This document shows positions 43,095-60,767 of a stretch of 64,000 nt of DNA, piece after piece (the stretch's first letter is position 1; the number at the start of each line of letters is the position of its first letter). The translations under genes and the position numbers were made by a program. The stretch is from Olivibacter jilunii. GTDB lineage: Bacteria; Bacteroidota; Bacteroidia; Sphingobacteriales; Sphingobacteriaceae. Location: assembly GCF_900607235.1 (NCBI RefSeq), contig NZ_LR027855.1, forward strand, positions 211,821 to 275,820, in the 5' to 3' direction. The notes beneath the pieces were generated by a model, which worked only from the letters and a program-made list of their open reading frames with translations, made no database searches and was not told the origin of the DNA.

Positions 43095-43838
43095 CTAAAT
43101 TACCTTTACTATTTGCGAAAATCGACTTAAGCTTTCATGTTTAGGATCCAAATCGGTCACTAAGTAATCGATGGCATTCACATTGCAGACTTTCATTTTC
43201 TGTACTGAATTCAATTTTTCAGCAATGCTTAGAATACCTGTTTTTTGTGAACAGCGGAGCATCGCTTTCTTAATTTGAACAACTTCCCAATCCGAATCCG
43301 TAACACCATCTTCAACCGATAGGCTGTTAGTTCCCAATAAACAAAGATCAACCCTGATTTCCGATAGCTGATTAATCACTTGAGAACCAATCGTTACATT
43401 GGTGCTTCTGGCTAGTTTACCTCCTATTAATATCACATCATCGCCTGACCGTTCTGCCAGCTCCAAAGCGACGAGGGGGCTGATCGTAAAAAAGGTGCAT
43501 TGCATTTTTTCGGGTAAAGTTCTCGCTAGTTCCAACATCGTAGTCCCCCCTCCCAGCAGTACGGCCATGCCATCCTGAATAAGGGTTATTGCTTTTTGAG
43601 CAATTGTCTTTTTTGACTCCCGCGCATAAACCTCGTTATCCTGAAACGGATACTGAAAGGACTTAGATAGGGCTCCGCCATATACTTTTAGTACTTTCCC
43701 ATTTTCAGCCAATTCATTTAAGTCTCTTCTTATGGTATCCTCTGATACATTCAGTTGAACGCTGAGGTCGGATGATAGAACCTTATTGTGCAGGTTTACT
43801 TCGCGCATTATAAAAGCCTGTCTTTCTTCTTTTAGCAT
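43095..43838 (-). CDS. DeoR/GlpR family transcriptional regulator
   Basis: 247 residues. The N-terminal helix-turn-helix is SSDLSVQLNVSEDTIRRDL with the family signature RRDLNELAENGKVLKVYGGA (in pieces RRDLNELAE, KVYGGA). The C-terminal sugar-phosphate-sensing fold shows GGGTTMLELARTL and ILIGGKLARSTNV. DeoR regulators usually respond to phosphorylated sugars. It diverges from the first SusC gene, which makes it the best local candidate for control of the three SusCD operons, though no direct site is proven. Confidence 0.92.
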   Translation of the reverse strand: MLKEERQAFIMREVNLHNKVLSSDLSVQLNVSEDTIRRDLNELAENGKVLKVYGGALSKSFQYPFQDNEVYARESKKTIAQKAITLIQDGMAVLLGGGTTMLELARTLPEKMQCTFFTISPLVALELAERSGDDVILIGGKLARSTNVTIGSQVINQLSEIRVDLCLLGTNSLSVEDGVTDSDWEVVQIKKAMLRCSQKTGILSIAEKLNSVQKMKVCNVNAIDYLVTDLDPKHESLSRFSQIVKVI

Positions 43839-44235
43839 GTTGGTTAATTTTTTCCTTAAGACTTGTAAATATATATTTTTATCACAAAATAATAATGCGA
43901 TGATGTTAATCAGCAGGGTTTCAATTTAAAACAGTAACCAACTATTTTATGGTAAGATTCAGCTATCGGCAGCAAGCTATCGGTTTCGTTCCTGTTTCAG
44001 CGGATCAAAAATTCGATCTCCGAAGACTAGTTTTCTGAGAGCAGGATATCTTTTTCCATTTAGTGTATCCATTTTGCATCCTTATCAGTCGAAAGACACC
44101 TTATTCCCAAAATACGAAAAAAAAACGCCTCCACATTTCATTGAGATAGAATGCCAATAACACTTCGATATCAATGATGGCAATCAGGTACCTCTATAGC
44201 CTAAATGCATGTTTATACATATAAATATTAAAAAA
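43839..44235. other. DeoR-SusC1 divergent gap
   Basis: No gene. It contains a 9-base direct repeat AGCTATCGG at 43961-43969 and 43975-43983 (14-base period), a possible DeoR site, and otherwise AT-rich DNA leading to the SusC1 promoter at 44236. Confidence 0.45.
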
Positions 44236-44275
44236 ACGCAAAACATTGCATAACTATTTTTTTTTCTTATACTTG
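44236..44275 (+). promoter_or_regulatory. SusC1 promoter with conserved upstream element
   Basis: ACGCA (44236-44240), 5 bases, TTGCAT (44246-44251), then TATACTTG (44268-44275). TTG to -7 box spacing is 19. Same layout occurs before the two other SusC genes. Confidence 0.7.
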
Positions 44276-44387
44276 TATATCCAATAAGCTTAAATACAGC
44301 TAGTAACACCTAATAAACTGCGGGATAAAAATTCAAGAACATAACTATGCAAGCAACAATCCCAATCAACCGATTCACAAACATTTA

Positions 44388-47300
44388 ATGATTCATTTTA
44401 TGACCAAATCAATCAAATTACTGTTTTTTATCTACCTTTTTTTCATCCAAGCCATTTATGCACAGCAATCCGTTATAGCTGGGCGTGTAGTGGATGAAGC
44501 AAGCAAGCAACCGTTAGCAGGGGTTTCTGTCAAAATCAGAAATTCAACTATAGGAACTTCCACGGATCCGGAAGGTAAGTATTCTTTGAACGTTGACAAT
44601 CTGAACGGTCAACAATCTATTGTTTTTAGTTATACAGGATACAAGAGTGAAACGAAGACAATAGCGTTAAAAACCGGCAAAAACCTGTTAAATTGCGGCT
44701 TATCTTCTGATCTTGTTGGGCTAGACGAAGTCATTATCACCGGTACCTCAGCGGGAACGACACGAAAACAATTGGGAAGTTACATCAGTTCCGTAAAAGG
44801 CGATGATCTTACGAAGGGCAGAAGCGGAAATGTCTTATCGTCGCTGCAGGGAAAAACGGCAGGCGCTCAGATTTCTCAGAACTCCGGCGACCCTGCAGGC
44901 GGAATCTCGGTACGACTAAGAGGAATCAGCTCTGTCAATTCCTCATCTGAACCACTTTATATTGTTGATGGTATTATTGTCAATAATAATACGACCCGTG
45001 TAACCAATACGCAAACCGGTTACGATGGCGGCAATTTTGTCGGAACGATCGGTCAAAATCGACTAGTAGATATTAACCCAGCCGATATTGAGCGAATCGA
45101 GGTACTGAACGGTGCTGCGGCTGCAGCAATCTATGGTTCGAGAGCGAATGCAGGCGTTGTACAAATCTTCACCAAAAGAGGTTCGCTAGGTAAGCCCGTG
45201 GTGACTTTTTCTTCCAGCTATTCCAACAGTAACTTACGAAAAAAAGTCCCTGTAAATCAGTCATCCGTCAAATTTGGCGGATCCGTCGATACGGAAACTC
45301 AAGACGTTCTGAATACCGCACTTATAACCACTTCTCCGGTTAACCGTTATGATTATCAGGACTACATTTTCAGAAATGCAAGCGGTACCGACAACAACCT
45401 TTCTGTAGCCGGTGGGAAAGACGACACGAAATATTATGTATCAGCCTCCTACTTTAATAACCAAGGCATTGTTAAGAACACAAACTTTAGACGGTTCAGT
45501 CTGCGAACTAACATCGATCAAAAGTTAGCCGATTGGATTTCCTTTAGTGCAGGATTAAACTATATAAATAGTGGAGCGGACGAAAAACCAGATGGAAATT
45601 CGTTTTACTCCCCTTTGAACTCTATCAACATTATTGCCAACTACCACGATCTATTCACAAGAGATGTTGATGGAAACTTAAAGTCGGTTGGAGAAAGAGG
45701 TCGAGTAAATCCCGTTTCAGTTATTGAGGACATTAAGCAACGTCAGGAAGTGAACCGCATTTTAGGCAATTTAAACCTAAAACTTACGCCCGTCGAAGGT
45801 CTTTCGATCGACTACACCCTAGGCGTGGACCACACCGGACAAAATGGAAAAACATATATACCACCGTATACATACAACGTTAATCCCGATTATTGGGGAG
45901 GTGGAAGCAACTTGAACCCAACTCAGAACGGCTATGCCAGTGTCGCTAGCAATTCAGCTTTTTTGATCAATCAGGAACTTAATGCGACTTATAACGCCAC
46001 GTTTTCTGATGTACTAACATCAACTTCTCAATTGGGCTTTTCTTATCAATATGAAAAATCCAACTATAACATGCTTAATGGGCGAGGTTTAGCACCGTTT
46101 ATCGAAACGGTTAACGCCGCCAGCACAATTTTGCCCGGCATGGATATTAGAAGCGAATACTCCGTAAGCGGGGCTTACTTTCAACAAAATTTCAAATATA
46201 AAGATCATCTATTTTTAACCGGTGCCGTCCGCGTAGATGAATCTTCCGTGTTTGGTGAGGACAATCGCAGGCAAGTATACATAAAAGGTAGTGGCAGCTA
46301 TGTGTTATCGTCTGCAGATTATTGGAAAAACACATCGCTAAGCAATTGGTGGAATTTATTCAAGTTGCGTGCGGCTTACGGCCAATCAGGAAATCTAACC
46401 GGCATTGGGGCCTACGACCGATACAATGCCTATTCCTCTCAAACTTTTTTAAGCAGGGTTTCCCTCTTTTCGAGCGCCACTCTCGCAAATGAGAACATTA
46501 AACCCGAGCGTCAGGCTGAATTGGAATTAGGTGCCGATCTATCCTTCTTTAACAATCGATTGGGTGCTAGCTTTAACTGGTACAACAAAAAGGTGACGGA
46601 TTTATTAATATCCCGAGTGGAAGCTCCGACCACCGGATTTTCAAGTTTTCTCGATAATGTTGGTTCCTTACAAAATCGAGGGATCGAATTGGTACTGAAT
46701 GGCGCGCCCATTAAAAACACCAACTTTGAATGGAATACTTCTGTCATTTACAACCGGAACCGAAACAAAGCACTGGATGTTGGCGGCCTACGGTTATTCA
46801 GCACTAACCCCGGAGCACCTGTAGCCATTATTGACGGTCAACCTATCGGTGTCTTTTACGGCACCTTTTTCGCTAGAAATCCTGATGGCAGTCTATTATT
46901 GAACGACAAAGGGATTCCGCTAATTGAACGAGGCATCCAAAATGGAACAGAATATACGCCCCAACGCGACGCGAACGGCTTACCTATGGGCACTCCTTTA
47001 CGTAAAGTTATAGGTGATCCGAACCCGGATTATACACTTACTTTTGTAAACGATTTTACCTACAAGAAGCTATCCTTACATATGCAATTTGATGCCGTAC
47101 AGGGTGTAGATGTCTGGAATGCTGATTGGCGAACCAGACAAGGTGTAGGCAGCGGCGAAATAGCAGAACAGGAACAAATGGGTGAGCTACCAAGAGGTTA
47201 TATAGCCGGTGTTTATGCAGTCGAAGAATGGAGAATTGACAACGGTAATTACATCAAATTGAGAGAAATTTCACTAAGCTACAATTTGGGTAAAGTAAAG

Positions 47301-47477
47301 TTTTTTAAGGATTTTACTATTAGTGCGAGCGGTAGAAACTTGTTCTCTATTGACAAATACAAAGGTTATGATCCAGAGGTCAATGCCGGTGGGCAATCCA
47401 CCATATTACGTGGTATCGATTTCGGAGCTATTCCGATCCCCCGAACGTTTACGTTAGGTGTACAGGTAAAATTATAA
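44388..47477 (+). CDS. SusC/RagA family TonB-dependent outer membrane protein 1
   Basis: 1029 residues. Signal peptide (to about YAQQ, residue 27), then a CarboxypepD-regulatory-like domain with VIAGRVVDEASKQPLAGV, a TonB-box-like LDEVIITG near 115, a plug domain (GKTAGAQISQN, VRLRGISSVN, PLYIVDGI, DIERIEVLNGAAAAAIYGSRA in pieces) and a 22-strand barrel. It imports an oligosaccharide or other ligand together with the SusD protein downstream. An in-frame ATG at 44400 is an alternative start. First of three such pairs. Confidence 0.94.
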   Translation: MIHFMTKSIKLLFFIYLFFIQAIYAQQSVIAGRVVDEASKQPLAGVSVKIRNSTIGTSTDPEGKYSLNVDNLNGQQSIVFSYTGYKSETKTIALKTGKNLLNCGLSSDLVGLDEVIITGTSAGTTRKQLGSYISSVKGDDLTKGRSGNVLSSLQGKTAGAQISQNSGDPAGGISVRLRGISSVNSSSEPLYIVDGIIVNNNTTRVTNTQTGYDGGNFVGTIGQNRLVDINPADIERIEVLNGAAAAAIYGSRANAGVVQIFTKRGSLGKPVVTFSSSYSNSNLRKKVPVNQSSVKFGGSVDTETQDVLNTALITTSPVNRYDYQDYIFRNASGTDNNLSVAGGKDDTKYYVSASYFNNQGIVKNTNFRRFSLRTNIDQKLADWISFSAGLNYINSGADEKPDGNSFYSPLNSINIIANYHDLFTRDVDGNLKSVGERGRVNPVSVIEDIKQRQEVNRILGNLNLKLTPVEGLSIDYTLGVDHTGQNGKTYIPPYTYNVNPDYWGGGSNLNPTQNGYASVASNSAFLINQELNATYNATFSDVLTSTSQLGFSYQYEKSNYNMLNGRGLAPFIETVNAASTILPGMDIRSEYSVSGAYFQQNFKYKDHLFLTGAVRVDESSVFGEDNRRQVYIKGSGSYVLSSADYWKNTSLSNWWNLFKLRAAYGQSGNLTGIGAYDRYNAYSSQTFLSRVSLFSSATLANENIKPERQAELELGADLSFFNNRLGASFNWYNKKVTDLLISRVEAPTTGFSSFLDNVGSLQNRGIELVLNGAPIKNTNFEWNTSVIYNRNRNKALDVGGLRLFSTNPGAPVAIIDGQPIGVFYGTFFARNPDGSLLLNDKGIPLIERGIQNGTEYTPQRDANGLPMGTPLRKVIGDPNPDYTLTFVNDFTYKKLSLHMQFDAVQGVDVWNADWRTRQGVGSGEIAEQEQMGELPRGYIAGVYAVEEWRIDNGNYIKLREISLSYNLGKVKFFKDFTISASGRNLFSIDKYKGYDPEVNAGGQSTILRGIDFGAIPIPRTFTLGVQVKL

Positions 47478-47505
47478 ACTCCATCAATAGCAGTATTTAA
47501 TCAGT

Positions 47506-48831
47506 ATGAATATCGACATGAAAAAAAACAACAGCATATGCATGCGTCTTTTCTATTATGGATATGGATTAGCGCTAATTTTCACACTCTCATCGTGTAC
47601 CAAAGATTATATCGATCCCTCGAGAGCATTAAACGAAGAAGCCCTATCGTCATCCCAAGCTTTAACAGATATCAGTATCGGCTTGCAACGTACTTACAGT
47701 TACCTAAGGACAAGCAATATCTATAATAAAGTAACAGCTAACGGCTTCGTTACAAACGAACTTTTACTTAGAAATGAAGGAAACATTCCTGAATTGCAGT
47801 TAAGCACCGGGGGTTCTACAGTAGATGGAACGAACACCGTGCTTGCAGGTCTATGGACAAGCAGTAATAAAATCATATATGATGCCAATCTCGTCATACA
47901 AAACGCGAGAAAGTTAGCTGATAAAAATCGAGCTAGTGGCATCATCGCTTACACAACGGTTTTGAAGGCCCTCTCATTAGGGGACTTGGCGATGAATTGG
48001 GAACAGGTACCGGCAACTGTGGGACGCAACGCTTCGTTTGTCGACCGAATGGAAGGTTATAGAATGGCAATTAGCAGTGTTGATAGCGCCTTGCTTTTCA
48101 CAGAGACGGACTCGATCAGTAATGCATTTTTGCAGGACATTCCCGCAGCGAGTATCGATATAAAAAATACACTTTATGCACTAAAAGCTCGTTATTCATT
48201 GTATATAGGTGATTATGAAGAAGCATTGAGCGCGGCCAGTCAGGTGGACCTAAAAAAGGTGTCGGTATTTGCCTATGACAATGTTTCTCCGAACCCGATT
48301 TACACATTTGCTACGTCCACAAACAATGTCTTTCAACCAAAGGACGAACATTTAGGGCTACCGGAGGCTCTCTATCCAGATCCCAACGATCAGCGCGTAT
48401 TATTTTATATTGAAAACGCCAATCCCGCACCGCCGGCTGTACGCATTAAAGGATTTTGGTTCACCAATGAATCACCAATACCGGTCTATTTACCGGGCGA
48501 AATGCTTTTGATTAAGGCCGAAGCCTATGCCCGGACTTCTAGGCTTGATTTAGCTTTGATAGAGCTAAACAAGGTGATCACAAAAAGGCCAAACGATGAT
48601 GTTTATGGACTTGGCGCCGCGATGCCTGGCTTAACAGGCCCTTATAGTGAAGAAGAGCTCTTGACACTAATCTATAAGCATCGATGTATCGAGCTTTTTA
48701 TGTCAGGTTTAAAATTGGAAGATATGAGAAGGTTTAACCGTCCACAAACAGAAATGAAAAGAAACTTCTTTCCCTATCCGTTTGTTGAACGGGACAACAA
48801 CGCTAATACCCCCGCAGACCCAGCATTTTAG
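47506..48831 (+). CDS. RagB/SusD family nutrient-uptake lipoprotein 1
   Basis: 441 residues, shorter than the other two SusD proteins here. Lipobox LSSC near residue 30 marks a surface lipoprotein. TPR-like helical pairs are visible (KALSLGDLAMNWEQVP, LYALKARYSLYIGDYEEAL in part) and the C-terminus has the SusD-type IELFMSGLKLEDMRR segment. It should cap the SusC1 barrel and bind the same ligand. Follows SusC1 after 28 bases. Confidence 0.88.
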   Translation: MNIDMKKNNSICMRLFYYGYGLALIFTLSSCTKDYIDPSRALNEEALSSSQALTDISIGLQRTYSYLRTSNIYNKVTANGFVTNELLLRNEGNIPELQLSTGGSTVDGTNTVLAGLWTSSNKIIYDANLVIQNARKLADKNRASGIIAYTTVLKALSLGDLAMNWEQVPATVGRNASFVDRMEGYRMAISSVDSALLFTETDSISNAFLQDIPAASIDIKNTLYALKARYSLYIGDYEEALSAASQVDLKKVSVFAYDNVSPNPIYTFATSTNNVFQPKDEHLGLPEALYPDPNDQRVLFYIENANPAPPAVRIKGFWFTNESPIPVYLPGEMLLIKAEAYARTSRLDLALIELNKVITKRPNDDVYGLGAAMPGLTGPYSEEELLTLIYKHRCIELFMSGLKLEDMRRFNRPQTEMKRNFFPYPFVERDNNANTPADPAF

Positions 48832-48868
48832 AATAAAGTGCCCATGGTAATGGGCACCTTATTTTTTG
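48832..48868 (+). terminator. intrinsic terminator after SusD1
   Basis: GTGCCCAT (48838-48845) pairs with ATGGGCAC (48850-48857), extended by AATAA/TTATT over one mismatch, followed by a T6 tract. Directly after the SusD1 stop. Confidence 0.85.
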
Positions 48869-49003
48869 TCACCTATTCCATACATCCCAACGCACTAAAT
48901 ACCGCTTTACTTTACAAAGTACTTATAAAGTAGTAGCTATTTGCAAACAACCGAATCATACATGCTCTTTTTTTGCGCTTTTATATAAGTAATAAAAAAA
49001 ATA

Positions 49004-49044
49004 ACGCATAAATTTGCATTACATAGAAATTCTCAATATTCTTG
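49004..49044 (+). promoter_or_regulatory. SusC2 promoter with conserved upstream element
   Basis: ACGCA (49004-49008), 5 bases, TTGCAT (49014-49019), then TATTCTTG (49037-49044), TTG to -7 spacing 20. Leader to the SusC2 ATG at 49203 is about 150 bases. Confidence 0.7.
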
Positions 49045-49202
49045 TACTGAAAACGGCTTTCATCCGCAACATTTATAAAACCAATAAACTGTAAGGGAAT
49101 AATAGAGATATAGCGTGCAAGCTGGGACTTGCTTCGTAAGTGCACTATTTACCGGTAACTAGATTATTATTAATCCATATATCGACCACTAATTATCAAA
49201 AC

Positions 49203-52200
49203 ATGAAAAGAAAACTACTCCTCTTTATGCTGGGATTGTTTTTTGTTTCTGCCCACCTACTGGCGCAACAAAAAACCATTACCGGAAAGGTAACAGACTC
49301 TCAAGGGCAACCACTTCCAGGGGTTACTGTGAGCGTAAAAGGTACGAGCACGAGAACTCAAACGAATAGTGAAGGATTATATAGTATTGAAACAAGTTTG
49401 GGTCAAATTTTGCATTTCACTTATATCGGTTTCCAAGCACAGGAGACAGCAGTAGGCACAAGCAATGTAATCAGTGTATCGCTACAATCAACCAGTTCTG
49501 ATCTTAATGAAGTGGTTGTGACGGCTATGGGAATCAAACGTGAAGTCCGAAGTTTAGGTTATGCCGCACAAGACATCAAATCCGAAGAGTTGCTTAAAAA
49601 TAAAGATCCCAACATCATAAACTCACTCAACGGTAAAATTGCTGGTGTGAACATCACCAATTCAAGCGGAGCACCCGGAGCTTCCTCATCCATTGTATTA
49701 AGAGGCGGAACTTCGCTAGAACGGGATAATCAGCCATTATTTGTTATTGATGGAATGCCTATGGACAATTCGACAGGACAGGGAGACAATAGTGCATTTG
49801 ATGGATCTGTAAATATCTCAACTACAAATAGTAATCGGGCAATGGACATCAATCCGGAAGATATTGAATCTATCTCTGTATTAAAAGGTCCGGCCGCAGC
49901 GGCACTGTATGGATTAAGAGCTGCGGCAGGCGCCATCATCATCACGACAAAAAAAGGACAAGAAGGTTCTACTACCGCTTCCGTCACTTCACGATTTATG
50001 ACGAACTGGGTTAATCGTTTACCCGAGCAGCAAAAACTGTACAAACAGGGTTCGTATTATAGCGGTGAATTTTCAGACCAAACGGCCTTGTCTTGGGGCG
50101 ATAAGTTTACAACCGGTGAAACAATCTATGATAATCTTGGCAATTTCTTCGAAACGGCTAGAGCGTATGATAACAGCTTTAATGTTTCCGGAGGCAGCGC
50201 TAAAGGAAATTTCTTTCTTTCCGCTTCTAATTTAGACCAATCAGGGGTTGTTCCAACTACCAACTTCAAGCGTTCTACCGTACGTTTTAATGGCGAACAA
50301 AAGTTAGGCATTTTCACTTTTGGTATTAACGCCTCTTACGCCGTAAGTAAGTCACAGAAAACGCTTACGGGGAGTGGTCTTTGGGGATCCAGTGGTGGTG
50401 GGTATATGGAAAGTGTGCTATCATGGCCATTAAATGCCAACATGAAAGACTGGATAAATCCGGATGGCTCTAATAAATTGCTTCTTCCTGACGTGAAGCT
50501 TGAAGATAACACGGACAACCCATATTGGATTATCAATAAGAATCCACAAAATGACCGTAACAACCGTCTTATTGCCACTGCCTATACACAGGTTAAAATC
50601 ACTGACTGGTTCGACGCAACTTATCGATTGGGGATTGACAATTACACTACTAACTTTAGAAGCCTTATTGCTCCCGGATCTAGTGTAAAACTTGCTTGGC
50701 AAGACGGGATGCTGTCGGAAACAGATCGGGCTTATAATTACATCAACTCAAATTTAATGTTGAATTTTCATAGAACGTTTTTTGAGAATTGGGACGCGAG
50801 TTTGGTTTTAGGAACGACTACAGAAGACACCAAGCTTACCTCCAATTCAAGGAGAGCGGAACAATTCGAAATTCCAAGCTTCGTGGATATCAATAACGCT
50901 TCCAACGAAAACAAATATTATACTCAAAGTATCAATCGAAAGCGATTGGTTGGTGTTTATGGTGATTTCAGGCTGTCTTATAAGAATATGGTTTATTTGG
51001 GCTTCACAGGCAGGAACGATTGGTCATCAACTCTTCCTTTACAAAACAGATCATTCTTTTATCCTGCTATAAGTGGAAGCTTTGTTTTCACAGAGCTACT
51101 CCCACAAAATCGTTTTTTATCTTTTGGAAAAGTACGTGCTTCTTATGCACAAGTGGGCAAAGACGCTGCTGCTTATCAAACCGCAACGTATCTCTTCGGA
51201 CCTGAATTAACAATAGGAGGTGGTTATAGAAATTATTGGTCTCGAGGAAACGATTTGTTAAAACCAGAAACAACCAAGTCGGTCGAATTTGGGACAGATT
51301 TACGATTTCTGGGCGATCGACTCGGCTTCGACTTCACGTATTATAAAAACAAAAGTGTTGATCAGATCTTAACGCCGCGTGTGAGTAATGCAACCGGGTA
51401 TATCTTAAGTTCAGTGAATACCGGTATTTTAGAAAATAAGGGGATCGAAATCACGTTAAACGCTACACCAATAAAGCGAGAAAACTTCAAATGGGATGCT
51501 ACCATTAACTTCTCACACAACAATGGTGTTGTAAAAGAACTACCCGGTTCGCTACCTATTTTATATGTAACTGATGTACAGGTAGGAAACGGCAAAGCGG
51601 CTTCTTTCGGAAATGGTGATTTCATGGGGATAAGTGGTTCTAAATGGCAAACAGACGCTAACGGCAACCTATTACTCGACTGGAACACAGGATATCCACT
51701 AACTAGTAATTCTACCACTACATATATCGGCAATCGTGAACCCGATTTTATTGGAGGTTTTAATAATAGTTTTACCTTCAGAAACTGGAGCTTCTCTTTC
51801 CTATTTGATTTCCGTAGAGGTGGGGACATTTACAATGCTACCGAGTACTTATTAACAGTAAACGGCATGAGCAAACTGACCGAAAATCGTGGTAATACGG
51901 TCACTTTTACCGGTCAATCGCTAAATCCGCAAACCGGGCAATATGAAGCCGTAACGCGCGAAGTTGTTGCAAACGAAAAATATTACCGCGACATTTATGC
52001 CAATAACGTACCCTTTTTCATAGAAAACGTGAACTGGCTTCGTCTCCGCTCTATTGCGCTGGCATATTCTTTACCTGCAACCCTTTTGAAAAAAGCATCA
52101 TGGATAAAAGGTGCAACAATTACAGCTACAGGAACGAATCTCTTATTATTTACCAATTATTCAGGTATGGACCCGGAAACAAGCGCTGCAGGCGCAGGAG

Positions 52201-52286
52201 TGGTAGGCTCGGGCTCGGTAGGAATTGATTATGCCGGAGTTCCTGCCACCGCGGGATTTGCACTCGGTTTGAACGTAAGATTTTAA
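49203..52286 (+). CDS. SusC/RagA family TonB-dependent outer membrane protein 2
   Basis: 1027 residues from the ATG at 49203, where a signal peptide MKRKLLLFMLGLFF...LAQQ begins; 21 upstream codons of the frame are not signal-like. Domains: CarboxypepD-regulatory-like (ITGKVTDSQGQPLPGV), TonB box region LNEVVVTAMG, plug with PLFVIDGMPMDN and SVLKGPAAAALYGLRAA, then barrel. The leader peptide is nearly the same as that of SusC3, pointing to duplication. Imports a ligand with SusD2. Confidence 0.94.
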   Translation: MKRKLLLFMLGLFFVSAHLLAQQKTITGKVTDSQGQPLPGVTVSVKGTSTRTQTNSEGLYSIETSLGQILHFTYIGFQAQETAVGTSNVISVSLQSTSSDLNEVVVTAMGIKREVRSLGYAAQDIKSEELLKNKDPNIINSLNGKIAGVNITNSSGAPGASSSIVLRGGTSLERDNQPLFVIDGMPMDNSTGQGDNSAFDGSVNISTTNSNRAMDINPEDIESISVLKGPAAAALYGLRAAAGAIIITTKKGQEGSTTASVTSRFMTNWVNRLPEQQKLYKQGSYYSGEFSDQTALSWGDKFTTGETIYDNLGNFFETARAYDNSFNVSGGSAKGNFFLSASNLDQSGVVPTTNFKRSTVRFNGEQKLGIFTFGINASYAVSKSQKTLTGSGLWGSSGGGYMESVLSWPLNANMKDWINPDGSNKLLLPDVKLEDNTDNPYWIINKNPQNDRNNRLIATAYTQVKITDWFDATYRLGIDNYTTNFRSLIAPGSSVKLAWQDGMLSETDRAYNYINSNLMLNFHRTFFENWDASLVLGTTTEDTKLTSNSRRAEQFEIPSFVDINNASNENKYYTQSINRKRLVGVYGDFRLSYKNMVYLGFTGRNDWSSTLPLQNRSFFYPAISGSFVFTELLPQNRFLSFGKVRASYAQVGKDAAAYQTATYLFGPELTIGGGYRNYWSRGNDLLKPETTKSVEFGTDLRFLGDRLGFDFTYYKNKSVDQILTPRVSNATGYILSSVNTGILENKGIEITLNATPIKRENFKWDATINFSHNNGVVKELPGSLPILYVTDVQVGNGKAASFGNGDFMGISGSKWQTDANGNLLLDWNTGYPLTSNSTTTYIGNREPDFIGGFNNSFTFRNWSFSFLFDFRRGGDIYNATEYLLTVNGMSKLTENRGNTVTFTGQSLNPQTGQYEAVTREVVANEKYYRDIYANNVPFFIENVNWLRLRSIALAYSLPATLLKKASWIKGATITATGTNLLLFTNYSGMDPETSAAGAGVVGSGSVGIDYAGVPATAGFALGLNVRF

Positions 52287-52297
52287 AATCAAAAAAA

Positions 52298-53932
52298 ATG
52301 AAAAAGTCTGTATATATTCTGCTTTTGTCAATCGTTTTTACCTCCTGTAAGAAATGGTTGGATATAAATGAAAATCCAAGTAGCCCTAATTCCACCGTAC
52401 CCGCTCCGGAACAACGGTTACCACCCATCATTGCACAATTCGCTGATGGTTACGAGAGCGCCGGTACACGGGTTGCATTTTTAGCACAGCAGCTGGCTGT
52501 TACCTACGCAAACAACAATAACTGGAATCTGACGAGATGGTACTCGAACGTCTCCAGTGCTAATTGGCCTTGGCAATCGTGGTACGTAAACACAGCGGTA
52601 AATATACAACCGCTCATTGAAGCATCAGAGAAAGTAGGCGCTTATCATTATATAGGTGCCGCCAAAATCATGAAAGCTTGGGGCTTTGGATACTTAGCCG
52701 ATTTTTACGGCATGTTACCCTATGATGAATTCGACATACCAGGCAATTTAACCCCGAGGTTTGATGATGGTGCCTATGTGCAAGGGAAAGTAATCGCTCT
52801 GCTAGACGAAGCGATAGCAGATCTTCAAAAATCGCAGGAAATTACGGCTCCTGATTTAGCCGAAGGAGATATATTAAATGGCGGCAAAGTGGAGAATTGG
52901 ATTCGCTTAGCTTATGGCTTGAAAGCTCGCTTTTTAAACCACCTCACAAAAAAAGCGGACTACAATCCGCAAGCAGTTCTAGATGCTTTAGCCTCCGCTC
53001 CCCAGTCGGATGAGCAGAGTTCTATTATGCAGTATGTAGACGAAGAGGGTGTTGCAGACAATAGCAAAGCAGCTTTACAATATGTAAATATTGGTTCTAC
53101 CGGCCGCATAACAAAGCTTTACTATGACTATCTTTCAAATAACTATACAGGAGCACCTACAGGCAACAATAACATGGAGGATCCGCGAATGGATCTGCTC
53201 ATCCCTCGAATGGAAAATCGAGAAGGCCAATTAGTACGTACTCAATTCGTCGACATGTCATCTGATCTGCCAAAAGCCGGTCCTTCGAGCTATAATTACT
53301 CCGCATCAAGTGACAGGTTTTCCAACAAAGATTCAGTATACGTTCAACTTCGGATGGATCCTGCTAAGCCGCAGGCGGGACAACGTATACTGTCAACCGG
53401 TTCATGGTATACCCAACGAGGAGGTAAAGGGCTTCTTTTGACTAATGCTGAAATGCGTTTCATTGAAGCCGAAGTACGACTTCGGCTAGGCCAATCGGCG
53501 GAAGCCCTTACGGCTTACAAAGCAGGTATTCGTTCCCATATGTCAATCATGGGAATTACGCCAACAGTTATTGAACAATTTTTAAGTAGTTCATCAGTTA
53601 TCCAAAATGCCGGCGACCTTACCATGAGCCACATTATGATTCAAAAATATATTGCCTTGTCTTACTCTCCGGAGGTATGGTGTGATTTGAGACGAATGAA
53701 TTATTGTACAGATGCATCAGGAAGTTATAACGAAACAGTTGGTATCTATAAAGGCTTCAAAAGACCTTCCCATGTGTTTATAGAAGCCTACCCTAGTCCT
53801 ACTGACTGGCCGCGACGATTTGCCGTGCCAAGTTATGAGATCAACTTTAACATTGAGCAAGTAAGAAAAGCAAATCCAAATGCGGAAAGCCCCACTTATC
53901 TAAACGAACCGGTTTGGTGGGATCAACCATAG
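52298..53932 (+). CDS. SusD/RagB-type outer membrane lipoprotein 2
   Basis: 544 residues. Lipobox FTSC near residue 17, then KKWLDINENPSSPN, the usual start of the SusD-like 2 (PF12771) subgroup. MKAWGFGYLADFYGMLPYDE is the family's conserved central motif (here in the form WGFGYLADFYG). The protein caps SusC2 and binds its ligand at the cell surface. Follows SusC2 after 11 bases. A terminator follows. Confidence 0.9.
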   Translation: MKKSVYILLLSIVFTSCKKWLDINENPSSPNSTVPAPEQRLPPIIAQFADGYESAGTRVAFLAQQLAVTYANNNNWNLTRWYSNVSSANWPWQSWYVNTAVNIQPLIEASEKVGAYHYIGAAKIMKAWGFGYLADFYGMLPYDEFDIPGNLTPRFDDGAYVQGKVIALLDEAIADLQKSQEITAPDLAEGDILNGGKVENWIRLAYGLKARFLNHLTKKADYNPQAVLDALASAPQSDEQSSIMQYVDEEGVADNSKAALQYVNIGSTGRITKLYYDYLSNNYTGAPTGNNNMEDPRMDLLIPRMENREGQLVRTQFVDMSSDLPKAGPSSYNYSASSDRFSNKDSVYVQLRMDPAKPQAGQRILSTGSWYTQRGGKGLLLTNAEMRFIEAEVRLRLGQSAEALTAYKAGIRSHMSIMGITPTVIEQFLSSSSVIQNAGDLTMSHIMIQKYIALSYSPEVWCDLRRMNYCTDASGSYNETVGIYKGFKRPSHVFIEAYPSPTDWPRRFAVPSYEINFNIEQVRKANPNAESPTYLNEPVWWDQP

Positions 53933-53950
53933 GTTGTTTCAAATAATGAT

Positions 53951-53979
53951 AAAGGGCATGCAATAGCATGCCCTTTTTT
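53951..53979 (+). terminator. intrinsic terminator after SusD2
   Basis: AAAGGGCATGC (53951-53961) pairs perfectly with GCATGCCCTTT (53966-53976), loop AATA, then T run. Nineteen bases past the stop. Confidence 0.92.
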
Positions 53980-54174
53980 GTTGATATGCTTCCTGTCTTC
54001 TATTATTGAAAAGCTTTTTGGAACCTCTCTATTCTGTCTATTCCAAAATAATGCACAAATCCGCAAATGTTAACACTTCAATAACCTAAAAGACACATAA
54101 ACAAAATAAAAAAAGCTCATTATTGCATAAAACACATATATAAATGCACTTTTATGTAAAAACTATTAAAGAAT

Positions 54175-54215
54175 ACGCATAATGTTGCATATGTTATTTT
54201 TATTTTGTAATCTTG
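54175..54215 (+). promoter_or_regulatory. SusC3 promoter with conserved upstream element
   Basis: ACGCA (54175-54179), 5 bases, TTGCAT (54185-54190), then TAATCTTG (54208-54215), TTG to -7 spacing 20. Further TGCAT-like words at 54124-54129 may be extra half-sites. No gene is seen in the 390 bases between the SusD2 terminator and SusC3. Confidence 0.7.
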
Positions 54216-54364: not shown

Positions 54365-57300
54365 ATGAAACGAAAACTACTTTTATTTTTCGTAGGGCTA
54401 TTCTTTGTGCCAGCCCTCCTCTTGGCACAGGAAAAAACCATCACGGGAAAGGTCACGTCGAAGGTCGACAAACTACCGCTTCCTGGTGTGTCTGTTCTTA
54501 TTAAAGAGACTAACCAAGGGACTAAAACGGATGAAAATGGCCGCTATGCTATCAGTGTTTCAAAAGGGCAAACCCTAATATTCTCTTATATCGGGTTCAC
54601 CCCTCAAGAGATCGCGGTTGGTGATGGCAGCTTAATTGATGTGGTCTTCCAATCGGGCGAAACCTCCTTGGATGAAGTCGTCGTAGTAGGATACGGAACC
54701 CAAAAACGTGCCAACTTGACGGGAGCTGTATCAACCATTGACGTTGAGAAAACAATTGGTCAACGTCCAGTTTCGGATGTCGGTCGGGCTCTTCAGGGCG
54801 CGGCACCAGGCTTAACTGTAACAACTGCGAGCGGTGATCTCGGAAGAAATCCGAAAATACGCTTGCGGGGACTTTCAGGATCGCTGAACGGAGAAGGCGC
54901 CCAACCATTGATTCTAGTGGACAATGTGGAGGTTCAAAACTTACAGATGGTCAATCCGGAAGATATTGAGAATATATCTGTATTGAAAGACGCTGCTTCC
55001 GCTTCTATTTATGGAGCTAGAGGTGCATGGGGTGTAATTTTAATAACCACGAAATCGGGAAAAAAGAACACACCGAACCGTATAACTTACAACAACAATT
55101 TCGGTTGGCAAACCCCTACGCAAACACCCGAGATCGCGGGAGCTGTGGAAGGAGCGGAAATGGTCTTACAGGCCATGCGTCGACAGGCAAACAACCCAAA
55201 TATCAATCAATTTACCGTTCTTGGTATGTCCTACGATGAATTGGGCATACAGAAAATCAGGGATTGGGTCAGCGCGTACGGGGATGGAAAAGGTCTTGAT
55301 GACGAAATGGTAATGGGAAGGGACTTCGAAGTTCGGGACAATAAACTATTCTTTTACCGTCCGTGGGATGTTAATGAGCGATATATGAAAACTTGGACAC
55401 CTCAACAAAGACATAATATAGGCTTTACGGGAGGCGGAGAAAACACTAGTTATAACCTAAATTTAGGCTACCAAAACCAAGATGGGGTTTTGAAAGTTAA
55501 ACCAGATAAATTTGACAGATACAATTTTTCAGTGGGGGTAAACTCAAAAATCAATGATTGGGTAGACGCAAGAGGAAAGGTATTATTCACCAGTACAAAT
55601 ATCGAAACCCCCTTCAGCTTTTCTTCCGCAACCTATGGCCCTTGGTATTATTTGTATAGATGGCCAGCTACGTATCCTTATGGAACTTATGAAGGTAAAC
55701 CATTTAGAAGTGCTTTAACGGAAACAGAGCAGGGGCAAATGAATGAAGACAAAGAACAATTTGCGAGAATTTCAGCAGGCTTAACATTACACCCTTTTGA
55801 AGGCTTTACCATTGATTTCGACTACACATACTCCTCTACTAACCAACATCTAAAGTATATCGGTGGTGGTACATCAGCAATAGATTTCTGGTCCGGAACG
55901 CTTAACTATTTGGAAAACTACCAGTCGCCCGCTTACGATTATGTCCAGTACAACGCTAACTGGAACAATATGAATACTGGAAAGCTATTCGCAACCTACA
56001 ACAAGCAAATAAATGATCACAATTTCAAATTTATAGTCGGTGGTGACGTGGAGTCATTCAAAGAGCAGGAACAACTGTCAAAACGAATGGGAATAGTGGA
56101 TCCTAATTTACCTGAACTCGGATACGCAACGGGCGATCAATTTGCCAATGGAGTCAATCGTCATTGGTCAACCTTAGGTGTGTTTGGTCGAATTAACTAT
56201 GCCTATAAAGACAAATATCTTTTGGAATTAAATGGAAGATACGACGGATCTTCCCGGTTTCCGCTAAATGATCAATACGGCTTTTTCCCCTCTTTATCGG
56301 CAGGATACGTACTTTCAGAAGAGGAATTTTTCAAGCCACTTGCGCCTTATTTCACGTTCTTAAAACTTCGTGGATCTTATGGGTCAATCGGCAACCAAGC
56401 TGTTGTAAGAAGCAGTGATCCCAGTTCATTTTACCCCTTCTTACCTTTAATGACCCCTGCTACTTCAGGATGGTGGATGGGAGATCAAAATATGTTAACA
56501 GTAGGCACCCCATCCCTTGTATCACAAACTCTCACATGGGAAACTGTTACTACGATGGATTTTGGTATCGATTCACGCTTTTTTGATAATAGTCTCGGAT
56601 TCTCTTTCGATTGGTACAAGCGGACAACCAGTGACATGTTAAGCGCTGGTATCACGGTTCCAAGTACACTGGGAGCGGGCGCACCTCGACGGAACTATGG
56701 TGAACTCCAAACAACTGGCTGGGAGCTGGCTATTGACTGGAGTCATACGTTCAGCAATGGTTTACAATTAAATTTAAGCGGAAATTTATCCGATTTTCAG
56801 GAGAAAATTACCAAATTTGCCAACACCACAAATGGGATAAACTCGAACTATCAAGGAAAAACTATTGGCGAAATTTGGGGCTTAGAAACCGATCGTTATT
56901 TTAATGAAGGCGACTTTAACGGTCAAGACGAAAACGGAAAATGGGTATTAAAGGAAGGAATTCCTACACAAGGTCCCTTAAATAGTGTCGAAGATAATGC
57001 CACGTCTTGGTTCCAATTTGGGCCTGGCGATATAAAATATAAAGATTTAAATGGTGACGGCAAAATTGACTTTGGCTCATCCACGCTAGACGATCATGGT
57101 GATTTGAAAGTAATCGGTAATACCACTCCCAGGTACCAATATGGGTTTCGCATTGGTGCTAACTGGAAAGGTTTCGATTTTGATGCTTTCTTTCAGGGAG
57201 TTGGCAAACGTGATTTCTGGGCTTCGGGTCCATTATTCATACCAGGCTATCGCATAGAAGCCTTCTATGCTCACCAAACTGATTACTGGACCCCTGAAAA

Positions 57301-57634
57301 CACGGACGCCTTCTATCCTCGGATTGTGAACACACAACAAAGCAATAATTCATTCAATTTCCGCACACAAACCAAATACCTGCTAGACCTTTCTTATCTT
57401 AGAATGAAGAATATAACCTTCGGGTATACTTTACCCAAAAGCTTAGTACAAAAAATCAAGCTGCAAAATGTAAGAATTTACTTTAGCGGCGAAAATTTAT
57501 TTGAGTTTTCTAATGTAGGAATGCCTATCGATCCCGAAGTTGATTATACCGACGAGCAAACCGATCAAACTTCATTCGGCCGGGTATATCCCTATCGTCG
57601 GACAATTTCTTTTGGGCTACAAGTCACATTATAA
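54365..57634 (+). CDS. SusC/RagA family TonB-dependent outer membrane protein 3
   Basis: 1089 residues. Signal peptide MKRKLLLFFVGLFF...LAQE, CarboxypepD-regulatory-like domain (ITGKVTSKVDKLPLPGV), TonB box region LDEVVVVGYGTQKR, plug with GRALQGAAPGL, VRLRGL-like KIRLRGLSGS, PLILVDNVEVQN and SVLKDAASASIYGARG, then barrel. VVGYGTQ and the SVLKDA-type plug differ from SusC2, so it is not a simple copy. Downstream SusD3 begins 10 bases after its stop. Confidence 0.94.
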   Translation: MKRKLLLFFVGLFFVPALLLAQEKTITGKVTSKVDKLPLPGVSVLIKETNQGTKTDENGRYAISVSKGQTLIFSYIGFTPQEIAVGDGSLIDVVFQSGETSLDEVVVVGYGTQKRANLTGAVSTIDVEKTIGQRPVSDVGRALQGAAPGLTVTTASGDLGRNPKIRLRGLSGSLNGEGAQPLILVDNVEVQNLQMVNPEDIENISVLKDAASASIYGARGAWGVILITTKSGKKNTPNRITYNNNFGWQTPTQTPEIAGAVEGAEMVLQAMRRQANNPNINQFTVLGMSYDELGIQKIRDWVSAYGDGKGLDDEMVMGRDFEVRDNKLFFYRPWDVNERYMKTWTPQQRHNIGFTGGGENTSYNLNLGYQNQDGVLKVKPDKFDRYNFSVGVNSKINDWVDARGKVLFTSTNIETPFSFSSATYGPWYYLYRWPATYPYGTYEGKPFRSALTETEQGQMNEDKEQFARISAGLTLHPFEGFTIDFDYTYSSTNQHLKYIGGGTSAIDFWSGTLNYLENYQSPAYDYVQYNANWNNMNTGKLFATYNKQINDHNFKFIVGGDVESFKEQEQLSKRMGIVDPNLPELGYATGDQFANGVNRHWSTLGVFGRINYAYKDKYLLELNGRYDGSSRFPLNDQYGFFPSLSAGYVLSEEEFFKPLAPYFTFLKLRGSYGSIGNQAVVRSSDPSSFYPFLPLMTPATSGWWMGDQNMLTVGTPSLVSQTLTWETVTTMDFGIDSRFFDNSLGFSFDWYKRTTSDMLSAGITVPSTLGAGAPRRNYGELQTTGWELAIDWSHTFSNGLQLNLSGNLSDFQEKITKFANTTNGINSNYQGKTIGEIWGLETDRYFNEGDFNGQDENGKWVLKEGIPTQGPLNSVEDNATSWFQFGPGDIKYKDLNGDGKIDFGSSTLDDHGDLKVIGNTTPRYQYGFRIGANWKGFDFDAFFQGVGKRDFWASGPLFIPGYRIEAFYAHQTDYWTPENTDAFYPRIVNTQQSNNSFNFRTQTKYLLDLSYLRMKNITFGYTLPKSLVQKIKLQNVRIYFSGENLFEFSNVGMPIDPEVDYTDEQTDQTSFGRVYPYRRTISFGLQVTL

Positions 57635-57644
57635 TCGAAAAGAC

Positions 57645-59351
57645 ATGAAAAAGCACTTATATTTTATTTTATTTCTCCTAACCCTGGGAAGTTGCAAAAA
57701 AGACTTTTTAGAAAAGCTTCCCCTTGACACAGCTACAGACGAAACTTTCTGGACAAGTGAAAGTAATGTAAGACTATTCACTTGGGGCTTTTATCCTTTA
57801 TATTTTAAAGGATACGCAAGTGGTTTCGATTTAAGCTGGGGAGGATATTTCTCGGGTCAATCATTAAATGACGATTTTGCACCGACTAATCCGGCCACAT
57901 TTACCTCAGTAGTGCCACCTAGTGGTGGTGGTTGGTCTTTTGTCAACGTGAGAAAAGCAAATATTCTGATTGATCGTATAAAACGAGTTCCAATGCCTGA
58001 GGAAGCAATAAATCATTGGACGGGTGTGGGTCGATTTTTCCGTGGACTGGAATACGCTAACTTGGTCAAAGCATTTGGCGATGTGCCCTGGTATGATCAG
58101 CCGTTGGATGAAAATGCAGCTGAACTCTATAAACCCAGAGATTCCAGAGTGTTAGTAATGGATAACGTTTTAGCCGATTTTAAGTTTGCGGCTGAACATG
58201 TGCGAACCGAAGATGGAAGTACGGGAGAAAAAGGCTTAATAGTAAATAAAGACGTAGTTTTGGCTTTTATGTCGAGGGTGTTTTTATTCGAAGGCACTTT
58301 TCTCAAATATCACAACATTGATCAGTCTAAAGCGGCCGAATATTTAGAAGCGTCAAAATGGGCTGCCTATGAGCTTATTAATAGCGGAAGATACTCCGTT
58401 AATACAAATTACCGTAATTTGTTTAGTTCGGTAAGTTTGGCAGGAAATCCCGAAATTATACTTTACCGTCAATATGATAAAGCTCAGATAACCCATAGTT
58501 TGATGAGTTATGTTAACAGAGAATCTCAAACGGGCGTTTCAAAGGATTTGATTGAAAGTTATCTGATGAATGACGGTCTACCTATAACACAGTCTTCTAA
58601 GTATAAAGGTGATCAGACCATTCAAAATGTCATGGCCGATCGGGATCCGAGAATCAACGAAACCTTTGCCACACAAATTCGACTAAACGGCGATCCCGCA
58701 TTGAAATATGCAAACTATTCTACGTCTGGCTACATAGTTCACAAGTTTTTAAACGAGTCGCTAAAGGACGCAAACGAAGGCCTCTCTAGTTCAAATATTA
58801 CAGATGCTCCTGTTATACGATATGGCGAGGTTTTGATGAATTATGTTGAAGCATCTGCTGAACTAGGTTCGCTGACTCAAAACGATTTAGACATTTCAAT
58901 TAACGTACTTCGGGACAGACCAGGCATTAATCTTCCACACTTGCAGGTTATAGGAAATTCTCCTGCAGTAAATGGTATCGTGTATGATGATCCCAAACGA
59001 GATCCACAGGTCAGTGGCATATTATGGGAAATAAGGAGAGAGAGACGCATAGAGCTGGCAATGGAAGGCTTTAGGTTAAGCGATTTAAGGCGCTGGAAAA
59101 AACTCGAATATACAGATAATTTCAACAGACCGGACATCAATAGAGGTGCTTGGATCCGCAAAACGGATTATGCGAACCTCTCAAATGTGGTTATTGAGAA
59201 TGGTGCTGAAGAAGGTTATATAATACCTGCGGCAAGACAAGCTTATCGAGCGTTCAACAATGACAAGGTTTATCTCGATCCCATTCCATTGGATCAAATT
59301 AAACTATACGCAGATCAAGGTGTAGAGCTTAAACAAAATCCCGGCTGGTAA
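57645..59351 (+). CDS. RagB/SusD family nutrient-uptake lipoprotein 3
   Basis: 568 residues from the ATG at 57645; the longer frame runs back through the SusC3 end and is not signal-like. Lipobox LGSC near residue 16. TDETFWTSESNVRLF, RGLEYANLVKAFGDVPWYDQ and the C-terminal REIR-type RRERRIELAMEGFRLSDLRRW (in pieces RRIELAMEGF, RLSDLRRW) are SusD hallmarks. It is followed by a hairpin and then the enzyme genes. Confidence 0.92.
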   Translation: MKKHLYFILFLLTLGSCKKDFLEKLPLDTATDETFWTSESNVRLFTWGFYPLYFKGYASGFDLSWGGYFSGQSLNDDFAPTNPATFTSVVPPSGGGWSFVNVRKANILIDRIKRVPMPEEAINHWTGVGRFFRGLEYANLVKAFGDVPWYDQPLDENAAELYKPRDSRVLVMDNVLADFKFAAEHVRTEDGSTGEKGLIVNKDVVLAFMSRVFLFEGTFLKYHNIDQSKAAEYLEASKWAAYELINSGRYSVNTNYRNLFSSVSLAGNPEIILYRQYDKAQITHSLMSYVNRESQTGVSKDLIESYLMNDGLPITQSSKYKGDQTIQNVMADRDPRINETFATQIRLNGDPALKYANYSTSGYIVHKFLNESLKDANEGLSSSNITDAPVIRYGEVLMNYVEASAELGSLTQNDLDISINVLRDRPGINLPHLQVIGNSPAVNGIVYDDPKRDPQVSGILWEIRRERRIELAMEGFRLSDLRRWKKLEYTDNFNRPDINRGAWIRKTDYANLSNVVIENGAEEGYIIPAARQAYRAFNNDKVYLDPIPLDQIKLYADQGVELKQNPGW

Positions 59352-59456: not shown

Positions 59457-60704
59457 ATGAAACGCATACAACTTCTCCCCTTTATATTCTCCTTCCTCGC
59501 TCTTTTACATGCATCTTGCACGCAAGGTTCGCAAGGCAAGCGGGATACTAGACAAAAAGAAAGTCGCCAAGCCATTACGAAGGATGAAATTCTTACCGGC
59601 GCTGATCAGCTTGGAGCTTATTTACCATTGCTAAAAGGAAAAAAAGTCGGACTAATGGGCAATCAAACCTCAGTGGTTGGGCCGGATAAAAAGCATCTGG
59701 TAGATGTGCTATTAGAAAACAAGATCGATCTTCGATTTGCATTTGCACCGGAACATGGTTTTAGGGGCAGTATTGAACGTGGTGAGAAGGTCTCCAATGA
59801 GGTAGACGAAAAAACAGGTTTGCCATTATACAGTTTATACGGAAAAAACAAAAAAGCTGACTCCATCGTTAACTCCATCGATATCATGTTATTCGATCTA
59901 CAAGATGTGGGGGCTCGGTTCTATACCTATATTGCATCTATGCATCAGGTTATGCAATTGTGTGCAAACCATGGAAAGAAAATAATCATTTTGGATCGTC
60001 CAAATCCAAATGGAGATCAAGTAGACGGCCCGGTAAGAAAGGATGATAAATTTAAGTCTAATATCAGTTTTCACAAAATAGCAATGATTCATGGCTTGAC
60101 GATCGGTGAATTGGCTCAAATGATCAATGGCGAAGGATGGTTGGACAAAGGAAAAAAATGCGATTTGACCGTTATATCCTTGAAAAACTGGGATCATAAA
60201 ACACCTTACTCATTACCCATAATCCCCTCCCCCAGTCTACCGAACGATGTCTCGGTTCGTTTGTATATGTCTCTTTGCCTCTTTGAGGCTACAGACGTGA
60301 GTGTAGGAAGAGGCACAGATTGGCCCTTTCAGGTATTGGGTTACCCGGATCCTTCCTTCGGCAAATTCACTTTCACTCCGGGCTCCAAGCCTGGTATGAG
60401 TGCCCACGTTGAACAGCAGGATAAAACATGCTATGGACTTGATTTGCGCGATATAGACCCCAAAAGTTCAACTTTTACGCTTAAATACGTATTGGATTTT
60501 TACAAGCTATTTAAAAAAGCAGGTATTGCTGACCAATTTTTCGCTCGCCCCGAATTCTTCAATAAACTGGCAGGCAATGATAAACTCATACAACAAATTA
60601 AGGCCGGTATGACGGAAGATGAGATCAAGGAAAGCTGGAAACCGGAGCTTGAAATCTATAAAAAAATGAGAAAGAAATATCTGCTATATCCGGATTTCGA
60701 ATAG
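59457..60704 (+). CDS. DUF1343 protein, NamZ-type exo-beta-N-acetylmuramidase (GH171) lipoprotein
   Basis: 415 residues. Signal with lipobox HASC near residue 21. The DUF1343 motifs are all visible: GLMGNQTSV, FAPEHGFRG, FDLQDVGARFYTYIA, LDRPNPNGDQVDGP and DVSVGRGTDWPF. DUF1343 includes NamZ, which removes N-acetylmuramic acid from the non-reducing end of peptidoglycan fragments. Activity is inferred from family. Lies 105 bases after SusD3, on the same strand as the downstream phosphoesterase and GH9 genes. Confidence 0.88.
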   Translation: MKRIQLLPFIFSFLALLHASCTQGSQGKRDTRQKESRQAITKDEILTGADQLGAYLPLLKGKKVGLMGNQTSVVGPDKKHLVDVLLENKIDLRFAFAPEHGFRGSIERGEKVSNEVDEKTGLPLYSLYGKNKKADSIVNSIDIMLFDLQDVGARFYTYIASMHQVMQLCANHGKKIIILDRPNPNGDQVDGPVRKDDKFKSNISFHKIAMIHGLTIGELAQMINGEGWLDKGKKCDLTVISLKNWDHKTPYSLPIIPSPSLPNDVSVRLYMSLCLFEATDVSVGRGTDWPFQVLGYPDPSFGKFTFTPGSKPGMSAHVEQQDKTCYGLDLRDIDPKSSTFTLKYVLDFYKLFKKAGIADQFFARPEFFNKLAGNDKLIQQIKAGMTEDEIKESWKPELEIYKKMRKKYLLYPDFE

Positions 60705-60767
60705 CCCCTGTATTAATCGCTCATCATACCCGATGACGTCATCCGGGTGCAAAAACAACTATAAGTG

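Follow-up and report, generated by a model that had tools for sequence, protein, structure and literature searches.

SusC-SusD pairs are usually controlled by extracytoplasmic function (ECF) sigma/anti-sigma pairs or by SusR-like or hybrid two-component regulators. In Escherichia coli, MurR of the RpiR family controls murQP, and the repression of N-acetylmuramic acid (MurNAc) catabolism is relieved by its sugar phosphate. In this study, 64,000 nucleotides of Olivibacter jilunii DNA (the window; contig NZ_LR027855.1, positions 211,821 to 275,820) were analysed. The window holds three SusC-SusD operons, each preceded by the same promoter module, and an adjacent gene for a DeoR-family regulator. 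The module is likely to be the operator of this regulator, which would repress the SusC-SusD operons within one MurNAc/peptidoglycan-scavenging regulon. As in the usual control of SusC-SusD pairs, substrate-induced expression is proposed. Unlike it, a cytoplasmic DeoR-type repressor would act on primary-sigma-like promoters, and no ECF sigma/anti-sigma pair, SusR-like regulator or hybrid two-component regulator was found among the locus proteins scanned. Compared with E. coli MurR, the proposed regulator would serve the same purpose and belongs to an unrelated protein family.

Other described systems are cited here from extracts of the papers. The motifs of RhaR, a DeoR-family regulator of rhamnose catabolism, are two imperfect direct repeats with a period of 10–11 bp (PMC3870299). 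The system proposed here resembles the RhaR regulons in its sugar-catabolic DeoR-family regulator and its direct-repeat motif found by comparative genomics. It differs in the half-site AAAnnYGCAT, the likely substrate (MurNAc/peptidoglycan), an extra inverted half-site 30–32 bp away and the SusC-SusD targets. In Caldicellulosiruptor bescii, DeoR sites are located in 5′ untranslated regions or overlap with promoters, which was read as repression (PMC8579813). In Tannerella forsythia, MurT is a transporter of the sodium symporter superfamily encoded in an operon with murQ (murTKQ; PMC5790795). The O. jilunii locus is likewise a predicted Bacteroidota system for taking up and breaking down MurNAc that includes MurQ and a transporter of this superfamily, but here several SusC-SusD pairs, NamZ and a glycoside hydrolase of family 9 (GH9) join the set. 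The main text of PMC5790795 contains neither the word DeoR nor the word regulator and describes none for murTKQ. Among the matches listed from open-licence PMC papers (titles and beginnings of abstracts), none linked a DeoR-type regulator of Bacteroidota with MurNAc or SusC.

Promoter module and proposed composite operator

The original prediction placed one module, ACGCA-N5-TTGCAT with TAnnCTTG downstream, before all three SusC-SusD operons. The module was found at 44236 (ACGCAAAACATTGCAT), 49004 (ACGCATAAATTTGCAT) and 54175 (ACGCATAATGTTGCAT), followed by the boxes TATACTTG (SusC1), TATTCTTG (SusC2) and TAATCTTG (SusC3). The GCA words were 10 bp apart in all three sites, and the spacing from TTG to TA was 19, 20 and 20 bp, both as predicted. 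The putative promoters, all on the plus strand, span 44246–44275 for SusC1 (TTG as −33 element, N19, TATACTTG as −7 box), 49014–49044 for SusC2 (TTG-N20-TATTCTTG) and 54185–54215 for SusC3 (TTG-N20-TAATCTTG). Primary-sigma promoters of Bacteroidota have TTG or TTTG at −33 and, about 19–20 bp away, a −7 box. The −7 consensus is given as TAnnTTTG in the extract of PMC7366714, and all three window boxes (TAnnCTTG) are one base off it. The claim of a common −7 variant held for the three window promoters and not for the congeners, where the box is either TAnnCTTG or has an A instead of the C. At the SusC promoters, the putative −33 element is overlapped by the second half-site, as proposed: a T precedes TGCA in 14 SusC-associated matrix sites, while an A stands there in four murQ sites.

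The genome (6,704,054 bases, both strands, and a control) was scanned with the spacer allowed to vary from N14 to N18. ACGCA-N5-TTGCAT-N16/17-TANNCTTG matched at exactly three places, each 5′ of one window SusC gene (3 forward, 0 reverse and 0 control matches). About 0.005 matches were expected genome-wide by chance from base composition. The relaxed pattern RYGCA-N6-TGCAT-N14..18-TANNYTTG gave the same three genomic matches and one in the control. The module was thus not scattered at random without SusC enrichment, because the full pattern occurred at the three SusC sites only. With up to two mismatches allowed, the core ACGCA-N5-TTGCAT by itself was not enriched in the window (24 against 20.3 expected), so it is the full pattern that is specific. 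At least 56 SusC-type genes of the genome exceeded the family cut-off (56 of 206 first-look candidates were scored), and the window contributes only SusC3 to those listed; the module therefore marks a small subset.

A common AATAAACTG word was seen in the leaders of SusC1 and SusC2 (44300–44330 and 49070–49100), 3′ of the putative start sites, and similar words occur in the SusC2 leaders of loci L006 and L007. The window gave no Rfam match for an RNA element.

The two direct half-sites of the original prediction were present, and the description was incomplete. An inverted half-site lies 31 bp upstream at all three window promoters. The predicted operator is composed of two direct half-sites AAAnnYGCAT with a 10-bp period and an inverted half-site 30–32 bp upstream. 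On the plus strand, the composite operators span 44206–44251 for SusC1 (inverted TGCATGTT), 48974–49019 for SusC2 (inverted TGCGCTTT) and 54145–54190 for SusC3 (inverted TGCACTTT), each with the direct words ACGCA and TTGCA 10 bp apart. A degraded second copy (AAGCTCATTATTGCAT, 54108–54128, plus strand) lies 62 bp upstream of the SusC3 site, and fuller second copies were found 63–64 bp upstream of that site in three congeners. Further weak half-site pairs upstream of SusC3 (54051–54128) reached matrix scores of 16.4 and 14.5; scores above 11 are unspecific, with 45 matches in 1.5 Mb of reversed sequence.

A total of 19 Olivibacter sites were tabulated, 16 primary sites and three second copies upstream of SusC3. 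They had been selected for YGCA at 0 and +10; the murQ site of O. sitiensis has CGTA as its first word. Fourteen of the 16 primary sites had the inverted half-site at −30 to −32, the exceptions being SusC3 of genomes G001 and G003. When the upstream sequence was shuffled 500 times, two adjacent positions together never exceeded two. The composite pattern occurred at 14 places in five whole Olivibacter genomes and nowhere in the control. Thirteen of these matches precede SusC, AnmK-SusC or murQ, one of them, in O. sitiensis, at a distance of about 650 bp from the reading frame of SusC. The 14th lies directly 5′ of a different DeoR-family gene (32% identical), which is divergent from a neighbour that we take to be HAD-like by resemblance. 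The intergenic region of this paralog (G000:C8:104705-104750; L242:1501) holds several TTGCA half-sites in the 10 + 31 bp geometry and is probably the operator of the paralog itself.

The original gene set, the three SusC-SusD operons, stood but was too small, since further copies 5′ of murQ and of an HGSNAT-like gene had been missed. The composite element was present 5′ of murQ in all five Olivibacter genomes. Upstream of the HGSNAT-like gene, an element with two inverted and one direct half-site was found in G000 and G001 and was not visible in G003, among these three genomes looked at. The geometry was kept in the congeners, and the neighbouring bases differed. In O. sitiensis (G002, L105), an operator lies 5′ of a gene presumed to be AnmK-like, followed by a SusC1-like pair. 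This arrangement suggests the use of anhydro-MurNAc.

DeoR regulator and distribution of the sites

The adjacent gene (43095–43838, minus strand) is the proposed source of the operator-binding protein. Its product has an N-terminal HTH_DeoR domain (PF08220, 2.4e-14) and a C-terminal DeoRC sensor domain (PF00455, 9e-40), both over the cut-off. The genome holds no second close copy and five paralogs at no more than 33% identity. Eighty loci were gathered by DeoR similarity alone, 77 of them outside Olivibacter. The helix-turn-helix was nearly invariant across the 80 loci, and the operator should therefore be kept as well. In the 77 loci, same-direction half-site pairs showed a peak at 10 bp, with 13 pairs against one in the reversed control; the half-site expression was shaped on the Olivibacter sites and an earlier matrix scan of the same loci, and the count is not independent of them. 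A slightly looser form gave 15 forward and three reversed pairs in the same loci. Pairs 12 bp apart were also over-represented (10 against 2 reversed).

Twelve of the 13 pairs were in loci with peptidoglycan genes beside DeoR, 5′ of AnmK-SusC, NamZ, murQ or the phosphoesterase gene. They precede AnmK-SusC-SusD in Pedobacter (L069, L081), NamZ or the phosphoesterase gene in Desertivirga (L082) and Pedobacter (L085), and murQ or the phosphoesterase gene in Pontibacter (L040, L047, L049). The 13th pair is in a locus (L013) in which only a piece of SusC was matched. No 10-bp pair was found in any Sphingobacterium DeoR locus among the 77. In the other genera, the units are same-direction repeats (YGCA...YGCA) whose spacing peaks at 10 bp, which favours the predicted direct half-sites one helical turn apart. 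The proposed sites have the direct repeats of 10–11 bp period that are a trait of the DeoR family. In three of the four Parapedobacter genomes looked at (G058, G098, G007), the motif marks SusC and NamZ/murQ loci on contigs other than that of DeoR; in the fourth (G047) it stands beside SusC-SusD only.

The presence of the site was compared with that of DeoR in murQ regions of 151 genomes of the family. A DeoR match was found in 87 genomes at 1e-45 (68 at 1e-90) and MurQ in 148. Forty murQ stretches from 39 of the 87 DeoR-positive genomes and 20 stretches from 20 of the 64 DeoR-negative genomes were used, both sets chosen by hand. Stretch L177 is without murQ, the "near" stretches of G084 and G096 hold no DeoR, and the near-set stretches L174, L190 and L191 overlap loci already looked at (L061, L085 and L082). 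The far set (20 loci) was new apart from parts of G058, G098 and G007 and offers a cleaner test.

The tandem motif was found in 22 of the 40 DeoR-positive stretches and in two of the 20 DeoR-negative ones (Fisher 0.0008). The 10-bp pairs numbered 31 forward and five reversed in the DeoR-positive stretches, and two and none in the DeoR-negative ones. Within 300 bp 5′ of murQ, the motif was present in 9/39 DeoR-positive and 0/20 DeoR-negative cases (p 0.022), and in 9/20 of the far set. In the Sphingobacterium group, DeoR and murQ are 39–102 kb apart or on different contigs. The comparison covered all 18 genomes sampled from this group, five of them added later and one matching Rhinopithecimicrobium. 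A rearranged site, TGCR-N6-TGCR-N15..17-YGCA, was found 5′ of murQ in 13 of 16 DeoR-positive and neither of two DeoR-negative genomes of the group. Across the family, none of the 20 DeoR-negative genomes looked at had it there. Four DeoR-negative genomes (G086, G020, G111, G116) have kept murQ and the symporter, and no site was found 5′ of their murQ. At least 23 genomes, picked by hand from lists, have DeoR no more than 30 kb from murQ. The original prediction had named the adjacent DeoR gene as the local candidate, and the comparative evidence supports its predicted control of the sites.

Several observations weigh against this interpretation. The strict Olivibacter core with the −7 box was absent from all 77 non-Olivibacter DeoR loci, and the link across genera rests on the looser half-site. 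Eighteen of the 40 DeoR-positive murQ stretches were without the motif. In four of the 22 positive stretches it occurred only inside one conserved coding gene; without these loci the comparison became 18/40 against 2/20 (p 0.008), and with matches outside open reading frames of at least 150 amino acids only, 16/40 against 1/20. No motif was found within 300 bp 5′ of murQ in the near-DeoR set (0/19). The Sphingobacterium-group test alone gave p 0.065, and three of the 16 DeoR-positive genomes had no site 5′ of murQ, one of them (G106) with an apparently degenerate form. All these p values ignore kinship. Most DeoR-negative genomes also lack the scavenging genes, so the clean comparison rests on the four genomes named above, and G111 has one tandem match elsewhere in its murQ stretch. 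No operator site, and hence no sign of autoregulation, was seen in the deoR upstream region. Tandem sites also precede an xseA-like gene, presumably for an exonuclease VII large-subunit-like protein, in the three Sphingobacterium-group loci read (L136–L138).

A family-wide promoter pattern was matched at 20 places in 19 of the 151 genomes, with two matches in the control; those of Parapedobacter and Olivibacter were examined further. Several matches, situated before the xseA-like gene or in coding sequence, were not counted as support. In six genomes of the Sphingobacterium group (L132, L133, L135–L138), AAAACGCACAAAC-type tandem sites are followed by a TAnnnTTG box.

Proposed repression and alternative explanations

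The proposed regulon comprises the three SusC-SusD operons, murQ, the sodium symporter gene and the HGSNAT-like gene. The DeoR protein would read AAAnnYGCAT half-sites, namely a head-to-tail pair with a 10-bp period and, 30–32 bp away, a third in inverted orientation. All are roughly on one side of the DNA, at distances close to multiples of the helical repeat, and form two groups facing each other; the arrangement would suit an oligomer. Bound DeoR would block RNA polymerase at the SusC genes; a block is proposed because half-site 2 overlaps the −33 element there. A sugar phosphate of MurNAc catabolism, MurNAc-6-phosphate or N-acetylglucosamine-6-phosphate, may release DeoR, as proposed from the gene content and the DeoR family. 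The distance from TGCAT to ATG was 44 bp at murQ (G000) and 136–183 bp at SusC1 to SusC3, and none of the murQ sites had a TAnnnTTG box at the SusC distance. The internal geometry is thus kept and the placement relative to the gene is variable, which suits steric repression. The original prediction spoke of one activator or repressor and left the sign open; the placement of the sites favours a repressor.

The same protein could act as an activator, binding at or upstream of the −33 element and recruiting RNA polymerase when a MurNAc-derived sugar is present. The departure of the fifth base of the −7 boxes from TAnnTTTG would be explained by activation, and the near-constant 19–20 bp between the TTG of half-site 2 and the −7 box at the three window SusC promoters would agree with it. 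However, the murQ operator is nearer to its start codon and is without TAnnnTTG at the SusC distance, and such variable placement suits blocking better. DeoR-family regulators are also read as repressors in the extract of PMC8579813. An activating DeoR is thus considered unlikely. Marginally less probable still is the binding of another regulator (AraC-type, hybrid two-component, LacI-type or CRP/FNR-like), with DeoR merely travelling along. A LacI-family gene lies about 16 kb away (27346–28383), and AraC-type regulators also use direct repeats, but with a 21-bp period in the cases extracted from PMC3870299. The scan of proteins between 36 kb and the locus end covered all but a few reading frames, and DeoR was the sole DNA-binding regulator in it besides a sigma-70 gene (L004:8032-8892). 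This gene has 100% identical copies in two congeners and appears to encode the primary sigma factor. The presence of the site tracks DeoR even when DeoR is far away. The Olivibacter core can be read as a palindrome, ATGCA-N6-TGCAT, but this fails in other genera, where the units repeat directly (CGCA...CGCA). A CRP/FNR-like palindrome with inverted 5-bp arms and a 6-bp spacer was rejected, as the YGCA units of other genera have the same direction.

The promoters might also be alike merely through duplication of the SusC operons, as leftover words with no common regulator. SusC2 and SusC3 do have a signal-peptide region in common, and the short AATAAACTG stretch is found in the 5′ leaders of both SusC1 and SusC2. 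Against this, the composite element also precedes the unrelated murQ and HGSNAT-like genes, and its geometry is conserved in congeners despite differing neighbouring bases. Duplication as the whole explanation is very improbable.

Locus genes, likely substrate and significance

The operons of the window are on the plus strand. SusC1, a TonB-dependent outer-membrane transporter (44388–47477; Pfam CarbopepD_reg_2 and Plug), is followed by SusD1 (47506–48831; SusD_RagB, 7.2e-06). SusC2 (49203–52286; Plug, 5.9e-18) was taken to start at an internal ATG, the listed reading frame beginning with GTG at 49140, and is followed by SusD2 (52298–53932; SusD-like_2, 3e-30). SusC3 (54365–57634) was identified by Pfam and by TIGR04056 over the cut-off. 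SusD3 (57540–59351; SusD_RagB, 2.7e-39) is given as the listed reading frame, and an internal ATG is probably the true start. Downstream on the same strand are the genes for NamZ of the exo-beta-N-acetylmuramidase family (59457–60704; NamZ_N, 5.6e-71; NamZ_C, 6.7e-31), a calcineurin-like phosphoesterase fused to a PQQ/BamB-like propeller (60765–62609; Metallophos, PQQ_2) and a GH9 glycoside hydrolase (62606–64000, running past the window; Glyco_hydro_9, 1.5e-70).

Beyond the window lie genes for a polysaccharide deacetylase, murQ with its own operator and a sodium symporter, with the HGSNAT-like gene on the opposite strand (locus L004; Pfam Polysacc_deac_1, SSF and HGSNAT_cat). The gene that we take to be murQ from its sequence (L004:4035-4840, G000:C8:277034-277831) sits between those of the deacetylase and the symporter and has homologs in congeners. 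In the O. jilunii genome it has one in-frame TAA at codon 57, which marks a pseudogene or an assembly error; no in-frame stop was seen in the murQ copies of four congeners.

NamZ points to a peptidoglycan substrate. NamZ, murQ and the sodium symporter together suggest a MurNAc/peptidoglycan-scavenging locus. All the components sought for such a locus were found, namely NamZ, MurQ, the symporter as presumed inner-membrane MurNAc transporter and SusC-SusD, with the substrate deduced from the genes. The original prediction had recognised neither the NamZ, AnmK and phosphoesterase genes, which join the gene set in relatives, nor MurNAc/peptidoglycan as the likely substrate.

The results support a predicted DeoR regulon for the scavenging of peptidoglycan sugars, and the earlier interpretation was both supported and enlarged. 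One operator ties three SusC-SusD pairs to murQ and therefore predicts one substrate class for all three. We also lean, with less assurance than for the O. jilunii locus itself, towards a wider role: the DeoR protein may be the master repressor for the scavenging of exogenous peptidoglycan/MurNAc throughout Sphingobacteriaceae and Pontibacter. It would act through a symmetric operator with four half-site positions (about 0, 10, 31 and 41 bp), two of them inverted and two direct; most promoters would retain three or four. SusC-SusD, NamZ, MurQ and the transporter would be coordinated from ordinary promoters rather than by ECF or hybrid two-component signalling. SusC-SusD loci are generally hard to assign to substrates and regulators. 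In a large group of Bacteroidota, the present findings would link the scavenging of peptidoglycan to a concrete regulator, an operator and a list of genes.

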